From Gloeobacter violaceus PCC 7421 (lineage in GTDB: Bacteria; Cyanobacteriota; Cyanobacteriia; Gloeobacterales; Gloeobacteraceae), in NCBI RefSeq assembly GCF_000011385.1, contig NC_005125.1, positions 3,782,001 to 3,846,000 of the forward strand: a stretch of DNA of 64,000 bases, read 5' to 3'. The notes under the pieces are model-generated. The model was not told the origin of the DNA. It was given only the letters and a program-made list of their open reading frames with translations, and ran no database searches. Below are positions 50,973 through 59,244 of this stretch, piece by piece. The first letter of the stretch is position 1. Each line of letters begins with the position of its first letter. A program made the position numbers and the translations under genes.

Positions 50973-51620
50973 TCAGGCGGGTTCGAGGCCGCAGGAGCGC
51001 AAAAGCATCGCCAACACCGAACGCTTCCAGTGTTCGTATTGTTCGGGGTCGTCGAGGATTTCCGAGTAAAAACTCTGCATGTATTGCATCTGGGAGAAGT
51101 ACGAGTAGCACAGCAGCATCCCCGCCATCAGCGTGCGGCTCACATCGCAGTCAGGACGCAGCTTACCCTGCCTCTGGGCCACCTCGAAATAATGAACCAC
51201 CTGCTCAAAAGTCTGGCGGCGAAAACCGAGGTTGCTCAGCTGATTGCCCTCTCCGAGCACCTCCCAGCTGATCAGCCGCACGTAGACGCGGTGGGTGGCC
51301 AGAAAATCAAAGTAGGTGTTGAGCAGCCGCTCCAGCATCGCGGCGGGGGGCAGGTCCGTTTGCAGCACGTGGCGGCTCATCTCGATCATCGGCTTGAGGT
51401 GTTTTTCGAGCACCGCCTGGTAAAGCCCTTCTTTGCTGCCGTAGTGATAGTAGATCATGCGCTTGTTGATGTGGGCGACGCGGGCGATCTCGTCGACGCG
51501 CGTGCCCATGAACCCCAACCGGGCAAAAAAGTACTCCGCCGTCTCTAAAATGCGCTGGGCGGAGTTACTGCAGGATTTGTCGGAGACCGGTTCTGGGGTT
51601 GAATTCATTGTGGTGAGCAT
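50973..51620 (-). CDS. TetR-family transcriptional regulator
   Basis: 215 residues. N-terminal helix-turn-helix: RILETAEYFFARLGFMGTRV with DEIARVAHINKRMIYYHYGSKEGL (in parts), then a helical ligand domain. Start 51620 is used; ATG 51608 is also possible. Ligand and targets unknown. It is upstream of the NDUFA9-like gene on the same strand and divergent from mutS2. Confidence 0.88.
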   Translation of the reverse strand: MLTTMNSTPEPVSDKSCSNSAQRILETAEYFFARLGFMGTRVDEIARVAHINKRMIYYHYGSKEGLYQAVLEKHLKPMIEMSRHVLQTDLPPAAMLERLLNTYFDFLATHRVYVRLISWEVLGEGNQLSNLGFRRQTFEQVVHYFEVAQRQGKLRPDCDVSRTLMAGMLLCYSYFSQMQYMQSFYSEILDDPEQYEHWKRSVLAMLLRSCGLEPA

Positions 51621-51786
51621 TGTTCTGGCGGTCCAGGTACATCAAAAGCAATTGCCAACAGTTTTGCATACCCGGGAGTCTATCGTACGGCATAGCCGCC
51701 CGGCGGCCAAAAGCAAGGGCCTGTACTACGATCGATCAAGTGGGTGCGGCTGCATCATCTTTCACGGCTCACCCGATTTGCTCATT

Positions 51787-54159
51787 GTGTTGTTAGCGGA
51801 TCTCGGTGCTGAAACGCGCGGACTGCTGGGCTGGGCGCGCCTTTGCGCTCAGCTGGCTTCCTTCGCCCAGACCAAGGCGGCCAAAGGTGAATGCGAGACA
51901 TTGTTGCCCTTCGAGGCGCGCAGCGAAGCCGAACGCTGGCTGCAGCGCGCCGAGGAGGCCCTGCGCTTGGCCGAGAGCGTCCCGGGCGGCCTCGCCTTTG
52001 ACGGGGTGCACGACATTGCCTCCGACGTTGAGCGCGCCGGGCGCGGGGGTCTGCTCACCGGTGAAGCGCTGCTGGCCGTCGCCTCGACCCTGGCGGCTGC
52101 CCGCCGCCTGCGCCGGGCGATCGAAGAGCATTCCGGCCAGGCGGAGGAACTGGCGTTGTTGGTGGCCGAAGTGCGCACTTTTCCGGAACTGGAACAAGAA
52201 ATTTACCGTTGCATCGACGATACCGGTGAAGTGGCCGACCGGGCGAGCGAGAAGTTGCGCGATCTGCGTTCGGGCCACCGGCGGTTGCGCGCCGAGATCC
52301 AGCGCACGCTGTTGCAACTGTTGCAGCGGCGGGCCAACTGCTTTCAGGAAAGTCTGATCACCCAGCGGGGCGAGCGATTTGTCGTCCCGGTCAAAGTCAG
52401 CCACCGCGATCAGGTACCGGGGATCGTCCATGATTCTTCCGCAAGCGGCCAGACGCTGTTTGTCGAACCGATGGCGGTGATCGATACCACCAATCGGTTG
52501 GTCGAAGGGATGCGCGCCGAGCAAGTCGAAATCGAGCGCATTCTTGCCGAACTCGCGGCCCTGGTGGCCGAGCGCGCTACGGAGCTGCTGCATCTGCATC
52601 GGGTGCTGGTGGATCTCGACCTGGCGGCGGCTCGCGCCCGCTACGCAAGCTGGCTGGGGGCGGTGCGCCCCCGCTTTGGCGAGCGCGGCTGCGGGCTGGT
52701 ACAGGTGCGCCATCCGCTCCTGGTCTGGCAGGAGCGCCACGAGCAGGGTACCCCGGTGGTGCCTGTCGATCTGCCCGTTGACCCGGCGGTGCGGGCGGTC
52801 GTGATCACCGGCCCCAACACCGGCGGCAAGACGGTGACCCTCAAGACCCTCGGCCTGGTGGTGCTGATGGCCCAGGCGGGGCTATTCGTGCCCGCCCGCG
52901 ATCCGGCGGTGCTGCCCTGGTTCGACCGGGTGCTGGCCGACATCGGCGACGAGCAATCGATCGAGCAAAATTTGTCCACCTTCTCCGGCCATATCCGCCG
53001 CATCGTGCGGATTCTGGCGGCCCTCACCCCCGATGCGCTGGTGTTGCTCGATGAGGTGGGGGCAGGCACCGACCCCCAGGAAGGTGCCGCCCTCGCCCGC
53101 GCCCTGTTGGTGCACCTGGCCGAGCGGGCGGGTCTGGTGCTCGCCACCACCCACTACGGCGAACTCAAAGCGCTCAAATACACCCAGTCCCACTTCGAAA
53201 ACGCCTCGGTCGAATTCGATCTGGCCACACTCTCGCCCACCTATCGTCTGCTGTGGGGCATACCGGGGCGCTCGAACGCCCTGACGATCGCCGAGCGGCT
53301 CGGGCTCGACGCGCAGGTGGTGGCGGTGGCCCAGGCGAGTCTGAGCGAGGGCGACGTCGAACTCGACCGGGTGATCGGCGCTCTGCAGGAGCAGTTGCAG
53401 ATCCAGGAGGAGCAGGTGCGCTCCACCACCCGATTGCGGGGCGAAGTCGAGCGGCTGCAATCGGATTTGCTCAGGCAGCAGGTGCTTCTCGACGCGCGCG
53501 AGGCGGCCCTACGCGCCCGCCAGGACCAGCAGGTGCGCGAGGTGGTGGCCGAGGCCCGCGCTGAAGTAGCCCAGGTGATCCGCACCCTCCAGCGCGGCGA
53601 TGCCACCGCCCAGCAGGCCCAGCAGGCTTCCGAGGCGCTCAAAGCCGTTGGCGAAGCGTACCTGGGCGAGGAGTCCGCCGCCCCGGCCGAGTACCGCCCC
53701 CAACCGGGAGACAAAGTCGAGATCGTTCCGCTCGGCCAGATGGGTGAAGTGCTGAGCCCTCCCGACAACGGCGATCAGGTGCGTGTGCAGGTGGGTATAT
53801 TAAAGCTCACCGTACCGGCAAGCCAACTGCGTCGCCCCGGTAGCCCGGCGACCCGGCCCAAACCGCGGCCCCAGGCTGAAGTTCCCCGTCCGCCTTCACC
53901 GCCCAAGCAAGAACCGCTGGTGCGCACCGAAGCGCAGACGATCGATCTCAGGGGGCGGCGCGTCGCCGAGGCGGAAGCGCTCCTGGAGCCGGAACTGAAC
54001 CGCCAAAGCGGGCCGCTCTGGATCATCCACGGCCACGGCACCGGCAAGCTGCGCGACGGCATCCACGAAATCCTCGAACGCCACCCGCGCGTCGCCCGCT
54101 TCGAATTTGCCGATCGCACCGAGGGCGGCAACGGGGTGACGGTGGTGTTTTTGAAGTAG
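51787..54159 (+). CDS. mutS2: MutS2 endonuclease
   Basis: About 790 residues from GTG 51787, the point where homology begins (LLADLGAETRG, LLGWARLCAQLASF); the frame is open further upstream into tetR but not homologous there. Walker A GPNTGGKT, ATPase motifs LLDEVGAGTDP and ATTHYGELK. A long coiled-coil, KOW-like strand, and C-terminal Smr nuclease domain (LRGRRVAEAEALL, IIHGHGTGKLRDGI). MutS2 does not act in mismatch repair; it resolves branched DNA or rescues stalled ribosomes in different bacteria. Confidence 0.93.
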   Translation: MLLADLGAETRGLLGWARLCAQLASFAQTKAAKGECETLLPFEARSEAERWLQRAEEALRLAESVPGGLAFDGVHDIASDVERAGRGGLLTGEALLAVASTLAAARRLRRAIEEHSGQAEELALLVAEVRTFPELEQEIYRCIDDTGEVADRASEKLRDLRSGHRRLRAEIQRTLLQLLQRRANCFQESLITQRGERFVVPVKVSHRDQVPGIVHDSSASGQTLFVEPMAVIDTTNRLVEGMRAEQVEIERILAELAALVAERATELLHLHRVLVDLDLAAARARYASWLGAVRPRFGERGCGLVQVRHPLLVWQERHEQGTPVVPVDLPVDPAVRAVVITGPNTGGKTVTLKTLGLVVLMAQAGLFVPARDPAVLPWFDRVLADIGDEQSIEQNLSTFSGHIRRIVRILAALTPDALVLLDEVGAGTDPQEGAALARALLVHLAERAGLVLATTHYGELKALKYTQSHFENASVEFDLATLSPTYRLLWGIPGRSNALTIAERLGLDAQVVAVAQASLSEGDVELDRVIGALQEQLQIQEEQVRSTTRLRGEVERLQSDLLRQQVLLDAREAALRARQDQQVREVVAEARAEVAQVIRTLQRGDATAQQAQQASEALKAVGEAYLGEESAAPAEYRPQPGDKVEIVPLGQMGEVLSPPDNGDQVRVQVGILKLTVPASQLRRPGSPATRPKPRPQAEVPRPPSPPKQEPLVRTEAQTIDLRGRRVAEAEALLEPELNRQSGPLWIIHGHGTGKLRDGIHEILERHPRVARFEFADRTEGGNGVTVVFLK

Positions 54160-56314: not shown

Positions 56315-57106
56315 TCAGGCAGGGCCGTCGATTTGCGGTTCGAGCGGTGCAAAATCCTGCGGCTCCCAGCTCCGAAACGGCATCGGACCCTCGGGGCGCA
56401 GGCCATAGCAGCGGGTCCGAAAAAGGCAACCGGAGCAAACCTGCAGATCCGCGCTCATCGGGTAGCCGGTTGCGGCAAAACGCTCCAGCCGTTGCAGCGC
56501 CAGGGTCAGTACCCGGCGATCCGCCTCAAAAGCGGGTGGGCTGTAGTTCAGTGTGTAAGGCCGGGCCGGTGCGTTTGCAAACCAGACCACCAGCCGCAGG
56601 TCTGCGGGATCCATGGGCCTGCCCCCCACCAGGCGTTCGCCCGCCAGGCAGAGAATGGTCCTGGCCAGCCGCAGCTGCCAATCCTCCAGCAAGTCGCCAT
56701 CCTCGGGGCGTTCGAGATCGGTATTCCAGATAAAGGCGGTCAGCTGCTTTTCGTGGAGGCTCAGCCGGTTGAGGTGGGTGCTGATTCGCCAGGAGCCGAG
56801 CCGCACCCATAAAGGGTACTCAAAGAACGGCTGTCCCTGGGGATGGGAGTGGGGACTTTCGGTAAAACGTTCCCACCAGATTTGCACCTGAGCTCCAGCG
56901 GCGGCGAGCAGCGGCTCGATTCGCCGGTTCTGAGCCGCCAGTTCCACCAGCCGGCAAAATCTGCGGTGCGCCTGCCCTTGCTGTTCGGACGCCTCGAAGC
57001 CCTCGCCGGAACCGCCGAGGCGGTCGAGGTACAGATAACGAAACAGCCTTGCACAGCGCTCGGCCGCGTCGAGGGCCGGGGCCGACAACAGGACCGGTGC
57101 GTTCAT
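56315..57106 (-). CDS. Cas4/RecB-like Fe-S protein with lost nuclease residues
   Basis: 263 residues from ATG 57106, which overlaps the helicase stop (ATGA). Four cysteines match the Cas4/AddB [4Fe-4S] arrangement: Cys18, then Cys224-x2-Cys227-x5-Cys233. The PD-(D/E)XK core can be followed (QAHRRF helix near 45-50, FFEYPLWVRLG with Glu96). However, the usual DR is Asn113-Arg (LNRL), and the DxK motif reads IWNT (126-129), so the metal-binding Asp and catalytic Lys are gone. It is likely a structural or DNA-binding partner of the helicase. Confidence 0.7.
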   Translation of the reverse strand: MNAPVLLSAPALDAAERCARLFRYLYLDRLGGSGEGFEASEQQGQAHRRFCRLVELAAQNRRIEPLLAAAGAQVQIWWERFTESPHSHPQGQPFFEYPLWVRLGSWRISTHLNRLSLHEKQLTAFIWNTDLERPEDGDLLEDWQLRLARTILCLAGERLVGGRPMDPADLRLVVWFANAPARPYTLNYSPPAFEADRRVLTLALQRLERFAATGYPMSADLQVCSGCLFRTRCYGLRPEGPMPFRSWEPQDFAPLEPQIDGPA

Positions 57107-59244
57107 CGGCGGCTGTCGAAGCACTGGAGCACCTGGAAAAGGCGCGAGGGCCTCTGCTCGCGGCCGAACAGGTCGCGCGTGGCGACACTCAACACCAACC
57201 GCCGGCGGGCGCGGGTGATCCCGACGTACAGCAGCCGCAGCTTCTCTGCCGCCAGATCCAAAAAGGCCTGCTCGGTCGCCGAGGTGTGCCCGCGGCGCAG
57301 ACGGGCACTGGCGCGCAGTTCGGAGAGGGCCTCGGCGCGCATGTCGAGGCCATCCAGAAAATAGAGTCCCACCGGCCGATCCTCGCGCAGTACCGGGTAT
57401 TCGTAAGCTGAAATCCCGGTCAGAAACACCTCGTCCCATTCGAGCCCCTTGGCCCGATGGGCGGTGGCGACGGTGATCGCTCCGGGTTCGGGGGCGAAGT
57501 GAAACGCCTCGGAGGGCAAGTTGTTGAGCGAACCGTCGAGGATGGCCCGGATCTCGTCGGCAACTTCCTGCCAGTCGACGGCCGGCCGCTCCCCGAGGGT
57601 GCGTTCGAGCTGATCGACCACGTAGTGCCCCAGGTAGATTTCCGCACTGCTGCGGTAGAGGGTCTGCACCACCAACCGCAGACTATCCGCCCGGGGGCTG
57701 CGGGTGGCCAGCAGCCACCCGGCAAGGGTGGAGCAAATCTTTTGCCAACCGGCCCGCTCCTCGGCAGCCACCGGCAGGGCTATCTCCGAACCGAAAACCG
57801 GAAACAACAGCTTCTCCGGGGCAATGCGCAGCAGCCGCGGTTGGGCGCCGGCGACTTGTCGGCGCCCCAGCCCCGCCCAGTCCGCCAGCGATTCTATCGC
57901 CGCCGCCAGTCGCACCGGCGAGGAGGGTTGGGCAAAAAACTCGGCCATCACCCGCAGGCGATCGATAAGTTCGCGCTGGGTCGGGTTGCTGCGCAACAGA
58001 TCGAGGGTACGCACACCGGCAAAGCGCTGCAGTTGGCGCAGAACCTGCGCACCCAGTTCGTTGGTACCCACCAGCACCGCAAAACTGTGCTCCGGGCGCG
58101 CCGCCAGCGCTTCGGCCGCGCAGCGGGCCACAGAGGCAAGCTCCTCTTCGGGCGGACCGCACACCACTTCAAAGTGGAGGGCGGCTTCGCTGTCGCCGGG
58201 ATTGGCAGGACCGCTGCTCGCGGTGCGGATATGCTGGCGAACCAGGGCGCCGCGCAGGCTGGGGTTGGGATGGTCGGAAGCTGCCCAGTCGACCAGGGCG
58301 TTGGCAAGCGCAATGATCATCGGAGCGGAGCGGCTGGATTCTTCGAGGACGACCCGCCGGCTGAGGCGGCAGAAGCGCCGAAAAAAGCGCGGCTCGGCGG
58401 TGGTAAAAGTGCTCATGATGCTCTGGTTGGGATCGCCCACCCGCACCAAATTGCCGCTGCGGGCACTCAACAAATCCAATAGACGCTCCTGCAGGGGCGA
58501 GCTGTCCTGCGACTCGTCCTCGAACAGGTAGTCGTACCACCCTTCGACCTCGCCGCGCACCCCGGCGTCGCGCTCGATCAGATCCACCGCCCGCCAGGCC
58601 AAATCGTCGTAGTCGAGCTTGCCCGCGCGCAGCAGTTCCGCCTGGTAGCTGCGGTAGATGCCCAAGGCCCAGGGTAGAAAACCCGCCTGCACAGGTTCGA
58701 TCGCCTGCGGGGGGAGACGGTAGTTTTTGGCGGTGCGGATCACCTCGCGGCACATTGCTTTGAAACCGCGTCCAAAGGCGGCGCGGTTGCGCGCGGCGCG
58801 CTCCGCCTCGGCAGTCGGCGGCAGAAGCGGTTCCCAGATTTCGGAATGGTTGCGCAGCCAGGCCTGGGTAAGACGGCTGATGAAGCGCTCCTGCTCATAG
58901 CCTTCGAGCACATCGATCGCCGCCAGGCCCAGTTGCCCCTGAAAGTGCTGCAGCACCTTGAGCGCCAGCGAGTGCAGGGTAAAAGCCTCCAACCGACCGG
59001 CCACCCCCCCTTCCCACAGTTGCCGGTTGATGCGGCCGGTCAAATTGGCCCGAGAGGAGCGCATGAAGGTAAACACGCCGATGCGCTCGGGAGGCACCCC
59101 CCGCCGAATCACCAGTTCGGCGATCAGCGCTTCGAGGGTGAAAGTCTTGCCGCTGCCCGGCACTGCCGAGATGCCCAGCCGCCCCCCACTGTAGTGCAGC
59201 ACCTCCCGCTGGGCCGGGCGTAAGGTTGCTTCGTACGCCGGCAT
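57103..59244 (-). CDS. UvrD/PcrA-like superfamily 1 helicase
   Basis: 713 residues with all SF1A helicase motifs: Walker A VPGSGKT (28-34), motif II FEDESQD, motif III VGDPNQSIM, motif V HRAKGLEWDEVFL and motif VI VGITRARRRLVLS. It is shorter than AddA/RecB and has no nuclease domain of its own. Its stop overlaps the start of the Cas4-like gene by four bases, so helicase and Fe-S partner are likely made in fixed ratio, as in AddAB-type complexes. Role: end processing or recombination repair, or defence (inference). Confidence 0.92.
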   Translation of the reverse strand: MPAYEATLRPAQREVLHYSGGRLGISAVPGSGKTFTLEALIAELVIRRGVPPERIGVFTFMRSSRANLTGRINRQLWEGGVAGRLEAFTLHSLALKVLQHFQGQLGLAAIDVLEGYEQERFISRLTQAWLRNHSEIWEPLLPPTAEAERAARNRAAFGRGFKAMCREVIRTAKNYRLPPQAIEPVQAGFLPWALGIYRSYQAELLRAGKLDYDDLAWRAVDLIERDAGVRGEVEGWYDYLFEDESQDSSPLQERLLDLLSARSGNLVRVGDPNQSIMSTFTTAEPRFFRRFCRLSRRVVLEESSRSAPMIIALANALVDWAASDHPNPSLRGALVRQHIRTASSGPANPGDSEAALHFEVVCGPPEEELASVARCAAEALAARPEHSFAVLVGTNELGAQVLRQLQRFAGVRTLDLLRSNPTQRELIDRLRVMAEFFAQPSSPVRLAAAIESLADWAGLGRRQVAGAQPRLLRIAPEKLLFPVFGSEIALPVAAEERAGWQKICSTLAGWLLATRSPRADSLRLVVQTLYRSSAEIYLGHYVVDQLERTLGERPAVDWQEVADEIRAILDGSLNNLPSEAFHFAPEPGAITVATAHRAKGLEWDEVFLTGISAYEYPVLREDRPVGLYFLDGLDMRAEALSELRASARLRRGHTSATEQAFLDLAAEKLRLLYVGITRARRRLVLSVATRDLFGREQRPSRLFQVLQCFDSRR

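Follow-up and report, generated by a model that had tools for sequence, protein, structure and literature searches.

The window analysed here, a stretch of 64,000 nucleotides, covers positions 3,782,001 to 3,846,000 of the Gloeobacter violaceus PCC 7421 genome (4,659,019 bases, one contig). On its minus strand lie two overlapping genes, one at 57103–59244 for a UvrD-type superfamily 1 helicase of 713 aa (P0002, assigned by profile and aligned motifs), and one at 56315–57106 for a protein of 263 aa (P0001, assigned by profile and family alignment) that belongs to the Cas4/RecB/AddB-type family PF12705 and has lost its active site. Both open reading frames were found where an initial annotation, made from the same DNA, had placed them, and its claim that they overlap by ATGA is borne out by direct reading: the plus strand carries TCAT at 57103–57106, which on the minus strand is ATGA and joins the stop of the helicase gene to the start of the small gene. 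The automatic open reading frame for the latter begins at an in-frame ATG further upstream and would give 374 aa (57439–56315); we prefer the 263-aa start at 57106, which agrees with the ATGA overlap and with the family alignment. A scan by eye of the open reading frames at 50–64 kb of the window recognised no cas gene. A large open reading frame at 51457–54159 looks by eye like a MutS2-type ATPase with an Smr-like tail.

The helicase had been described as complete, and this description holds. P0002 matches UvrD-helicase (E 8e-37) and UvrD_C (E 5e-15), and it contains the full set of motifs I–VI of a UvrD-type superfamily 1 helicase, which the alignment shows to be common to 37 homologues. Aligned motif I (Walker A; residues 25–36, ISAVPGSGKTFT) lies at 59137–59172, motif II (residues 239–249, YLFEDESQDSS) at 58498–58530 and motif VI (residues 670–683, RLLYVGITRARRRL) at 57196–57237, all on the minus strand. 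P0002 falls far under every equivalog cut-off considered (AddA, RecB, PcrA, Rep and UvrD). The likeness to AddAB-type modules drawn in the initial annotation thus stands for the gene lay-out and fails for the helicase, which is not AddA by sequence, and the pair may serve either repair or defence; we rejected membership of AddAB or RecB, for which P0002 reaches 67.5 and 68 bits against AddA and RecB equivalog cut-offs of 707.65 and 696.05. Gabija (GajAB) was also rejected, as P0001 has no PADLOC match and P0002 matches the GajB models merely as a generic UvrD helicase, and so were the other PADLOC systems, where the matches reflect only generic UvrD.

Active site and cysteines of the small protein

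P0001 matches PF12705 (PDDEXK_1) with 30.9 bits, above the curated cut-off of 22 (E 3.5e-7), mostly over its C-terminal half, and intact relatives score 90–114 bits. Relatives were gathered by whole-genome searches of the phylum, and P0001 was aligned with 127 sequences; the resulting 128 rows include P0001 twice, which gives five rows for four Gloeobacter genomes. We equate the columns H51, D113, D126, K128 and Y148 with the catalytic residues of the RecB-type nuclease site (H, D, D, K and Y, in that order), and we regard E96 and Q144 as further residues of that site. Of the 123 rows from outside Gloeobacter, 122 preserve all five columns. The sole exception (L170, G278:C37) is a degenerate second copy that has neither the catalytic Lys nor the cysteines; the same genome also has an intact copy, and nothing was identified beside the degenerate one.

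Where an active nuclease would carry H, D, (D/E)xK and QxxxY, P0001 carries the changes H51C, D113N, D126I, K128N and Y148A. The minus-strand codons concerned are those of C51 in the His column of GxxxH (56954–56956; H in 123 of 128 rows), N113 in the metal-Asp column (56768–56770; D in 123 of 128), residues 126–129, which read IWNT for DWKT (56720–56731; D in 123 of 128 rows at D126 and K in 122 of 128 at K128), and A148 in the Tyr column of QxxxY (56663–56665; Y in 122 of 128). The initial annotation had noted an Asn in place of the metal Asp and the loss of DxK as IWNT, and it had proposed checking both in a family alignment; the alignment agrees on both counts and adds the His and Tyr losses, which had been overlooked. 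All five catalytic residues are gone in each of the four Gloeobacter genomes examined. The replacements are C, N, I, N and A in G. violaceus, in a metagenome-assembled genome (MAG) titled Aphanocapsa lilacina, which holds a copy of the pair at 95–98% identity, and in a third genome (G392) that by genus placement is presumably G. morelensis. They are R, H, Q, D and P in the fourth (G390), which we take to be G. kilaueensis and in which Q144 is lost too. E96 is still present in Gloeobacter, and G. violaceus retains both E96 and Q144, which are conserved in relatives.

An assembly or sequencing error can be ruled out, since the same residues occur in the independent MAG (98%) and in another Gloeobacter genome (94%). 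P0001 contains a single lysine, K120, and no (D/E)xK at any position, which excludes the displaced active site that would have spoken against a dead nuclease; together with the intact columns of the other family members, the same two facts rule out chance or misalignment. The small protein of G. kilaueensis contains two ExK motifs, both off the catalytic column. The reading as a dead nuclease, fixed in four Gloeobacter genomes and kept in a protein under purifying selection, is thus supported from the sequence, and the small protein is probably without catalytic activity in all four.

The cysteines have fared differently, and here too the earlier description, of four intact cluster cysteines, was accurate. 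C18 (codon 57053–57055, minus strand), the first predicted Fe–S cysteine, is conserved in 127 of 128 rows, and it is kept in all Gloeobacter rows together with the other three, which form C224-x2-C227-x5-C233 (codons 224–233, 56408–56437, minus strand). All four Gloeobacter genomes thereby show the one N-terminal and three C-terminal cysteines of the Fe–S subgroup represented by Cas4, AddB and Dna2, and by homology to these proteins the small protein is predicted to hold an Fe–S cluster. The cysteines are unchanged despite a divergence of 1.79 substitutions per site between the small proteins of G. violaceus and G. kilaueensis. The reverse case is seen outside Gloeobacter, where several lineages keep an intact nuclease site and lack C233, alone or with other C-terminal cysteines (crown cyanobacterial examples are L190, L195, L025, L176, L189, L187, L175, L145, L149 and L139, among others). 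Loss of catalysis and loss of Fe–S cysteines are separate events in different lineages.

Distribution of the pair and of RecBCD

Several genomes from early branches of the phylum encode an intact nuclease next to the helicase, and in all four Gloeobacter genomes the small gene and the helicase gene overlap or adjoin; the pair is ancestrally a helicase–nuclease operon. Among the oxyphotobacteria the helicase (E<=1e-25) was found in 110 genomes, the nuclease (E<=1e-20) in 125 and both in 109, with one helicase (G340) counted without its position, and the 16 genomes with only the nuclease may in many cases fall below the helicase threshold. The two genes are mostly unlinked in this group and lie within 5 kb of each other in just two cases, Gloeobacter and G286, where they are on opposite strands. 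The two genomes that we take to be hot-spring Synechococcus/Thermostichus (G177 and G332) have both genes, unlinked, with a helicase of about 56% identity.

A helicase homologue is present in all nine Gloeobacterales genomes, none of which has an intact nuclease of the P0001 family. Helicase identity is 66–100% in Gloeobacter and one sister genus and 32–36% in the other four, whose orthology is less sure for that reason. The dead small protein occurs in four of the nine; among the remaining five, three gave weak partial matches (E 0.003–0.007) and two none, an absence that is provisional because most of these assemblies are fragmented (G388 is a single contig). As a helicase homologue occurs there without the small gene, the small protein appears dispensable in these five genomes. 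In the sister genus (L085, G394:C196) the helicase, at 66% identity, has no adjoining small gene, and an amidase-like open reading frame lies about 400 bases downstream. When G. violaceus is compared with the Aphanocapsa lilacina MAG (L003), dS is 0.036 for the small gene and 0.18 for the helicase, a mismatch suggestive of a recombination boundary lying between or inside the two genes.

In searches covering 386 genomes of the phylum, RecC (PF04257) was detected in 57 oxyphotobacterial genomes, every one of family f20, and no f20 genome yielded a P0001-family nuclease. The G. violaceus genome has no detectable RecC, and the nuclease and RecC occur together in no oxyphotobacterial genome searched; in the rest of the phylum one genome (G053, 9% contamination) has both. 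Published work reports recBCD in marine Prochlorococcus and Synechococcus and finds recBC missing from G. violaceus and G. kilaueensis (PMC5101192). Because helicase and nuclease co-occur (109 of 110 genomes) and the nuclease is never found with RecC in oxyphotobacteria, the intact pair may perform RecBCD/AddAB-type work, and the exclusion of RecC, which is a single clade-level contrast and not a set of many independent events, suggests such a functional replacement and does not prove it.

We saw no long fused helicase–nuclease in G. violaceus, as its three UvrD-type open frames have 826, 721 and 741 codons. Two more PF12705 proteins are encoded outside the window (L001 and L002; P0003 and P0004), with catalytic motifs that by eye appear intact and no helicase recognised by eye nearby, and either of them could supply the cutting activity that P0001 lacks. 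In a transposon screen in Synechococcus elongatus PCC 7942, conjugation or maintenance of an RSF1010 plasmid, and natural transformation as well, were favoured when uvrD, cas4, recJ(cy) or Synpcc7942_0992 was lost, the product of the last having a PD-(D/E)XK endonuclease-like domain (PMC10653904). The gene pxcA is Synpcc7942_0991 (PMC11360081). A genome taken as a close relative of S. elongatus (G036) encodes two PF12705 proteins, one of them in the P0001 family; no recognisable pxcA adjoins either, and Synpcc7942_0992 and 'cas4' are at most candidate members of this family.

Selection on the small gene and competing explanations

Pairwise dN/dS within Gloeobacter is 0.24–0.45 for the small gene and 0.10–0.21 for the helicase, and for the intact Thermostichus pair it is 0.187 and 0.106, respectively. 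The small gene departs from neutrality weakly in the pair at 94% identity (p 0.034) and clearly in the deep pair (p 3e-5), the latter test being close to synonymous saturation, and no stop or frameshift interrupts it in the four Gloeobacter genomes. In matched trees, the mean distance of the small protein to early-branching relatives is 3.56 for Gloeobacter against 2.53 for Thermostichus, and that of the helicase is 2.87 against 2.80. G. violaceus and G. kilaueensis are separated by 0.37 substitutions per site in the helicase. The lengthening of the Gloeobacter branches in the small protein and not in the helicase indicates relaxed constraint, and the drift goes beyond the five catalytic positions, since 6 of 12 other columns conserved at >=90% are also altered in G. 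violaceus (a Fisher test comparing the catalytic columns with the other conserved ones gave no significant difference, p 0.26). Judged by these substitution patterns, the small protein is under selection, yet its constraint is relaxed and its evolution fast.

We lean towards a view of the small protein as a non-catalytic Fe–S partner of the helicase. An ancient pair, made of a UvrD-like helicase and a stand-alone Fe–S nuclease of the Cas4/AddB type, would have turned in Gloeobacter into a helicase with a non-catalytic partner. The small protein would still fold round a 4Fe–4S cluster and, as homology and operon structure suggest, bind the helicase, where it may clamp or guide a separated DNA strand or stabilise the helicase, in the manner of the inactive nuclease-like domain of RecC. 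The parent pair may process DNA ends or incoming DNA in the style of RecBCD or AddAB in cyanobacteria without RecBCD, and the Gloeobacter machine would unwind, any cutting falling to other enzymes. An AlphaFold model from the two sequences was unusable (mean pLDDT 38.6). We offer only tentatively, as something possible that we would not yet expect, the wider proposal that Gloeobacterales, photosynthetic cyanobacteria that branch early, handle DNA ends by a RecBCD/AddAB-like pathway based on a nuclease-less helicase, that the Gloeobacter ex-nuclease is a structural, strand-guiding or redox-sensing subunit, and that in other cyanobacteria the intact pair generally stands in for RecBCD.

The main rival, given the relaxed constraint and the relatives without the gene, is that the nuclease has become dispensable in Gloeobacterales, that its active site then drifted, and that the small gene is a leftover in slow decay, under weak residual constraint and heading to loss. 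Its dN/dS exceeds that of the helicase and of the intact Thermostichus gene, branches are lengthened in the small protein only, and the sister genus (G394) has the helicase with no detectable small gene. Decay nevertheless seems rather unlikely to us, because about 1.8 substitutions per site have left the frame open in four genomes, the deep pair has more silent changes than neutrality predicts (near saturation, as noted), and both lineages keep four cysteines while all five catalytic columns have changed. That the small protein still cuts nucleic acid through a rebuilt or displaced active site is more improbable by far: some PD-(D/E)XK enzymes do have migrated residues, and E96 and Q144 are kept in G. 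violaceus, but P0001 has only its one lysine and no (D/E)xK, and G. kilaueensis is also without Q144 and has other replacements at all five positions. Repurposing independent of the helicase, as a DNA-binding or redox-sensing Fe–S protein whose adjacency is historical, finds some encouragement in the unlinked genes of most oxyphotobacteria and in the inactivated Cas4-like protein that became the nucleocapsid protein of virus TTV1 (PMC5704561); we consider it improbable, as four of four Gloeobacter genomes retain the overlap of the small gene with the helicase gene even though most other oxyphotobacteria have split the two.

A non-catalytic partner of this kind would be a natural separation of function, in which the helicase and the Fe–S cysteines are kept and catalysis is gone, and the two Gloeobacter lineages with different catalytic replacements provide an internal control. 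It would make testable what the Fe–S module of Cas4/AddB-type nucleases does when cutting is unneeded, and the widespread intact pair becomes a candidate DNA-end-processing enzyme in many cyanobacteria without RecBCD.

Comparison with known systems

The nearest counterpart is the intact PF12705 nuclease and UvrD-like helicase of other Cyanobacteriota, in which both proteins are homologous to ours and the genes are adjacent in early-branching classes; it differs in its intact nuclease site and in the separation of the genes in most oxyphotobacteria. AddAB of B. subtilis and AdnAB of mycobacteria likewise combine a superfamily 1 helicase with a PD-(D/E)XK nuclease, the AddB nuclease domain has an Fe–S cluster, and the P0001-family profile matches AdnB weakly (E 7.6e-5). 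In those systems the nuclease domain is part of a helicase or helicase-like chain, whereas Gloeobacter has a separate 713-aa helicase and a 263-aa protein whose site is lost. Dead nuclease folds in helicase machines are already known from RecC, which has a nuclease-like fold without catalysis within RecBCD; RecC is a large subunit without Fe–S cysteines, and the likeness is one of description.

Other systems share the Fe–S nuclease and differ in its state or setting. The bacterial Dna2-like protein Bad (PMC7430649) and human DNA2 join a helicase to an Fe–S nuclease with four cysteines, and in DNA2 the cluster matters beyond cutting (PMC7311471), but both are single chains with an active nuclease. 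The TTV1 nucleocapsid protein (PMC5704561) is an inactivated Cas4-like protein in a non-catalytic role, and differs in being a viral structural protein with no helicase partner. Pairs of UvrD and Cas4-like proteins are already known: the unfused pair of Clostridiales and the UvrD–Cas4 fusions (Hudaiberdiev et al., 2017; PMC5704561) combine, within a single predicted operon, a UvrD-like helicase and a Cas4-like partner of family PF12705, a likeness again drawn by description, and they differ from the Gloeobacter pair in that their nuclease is regarded as active.
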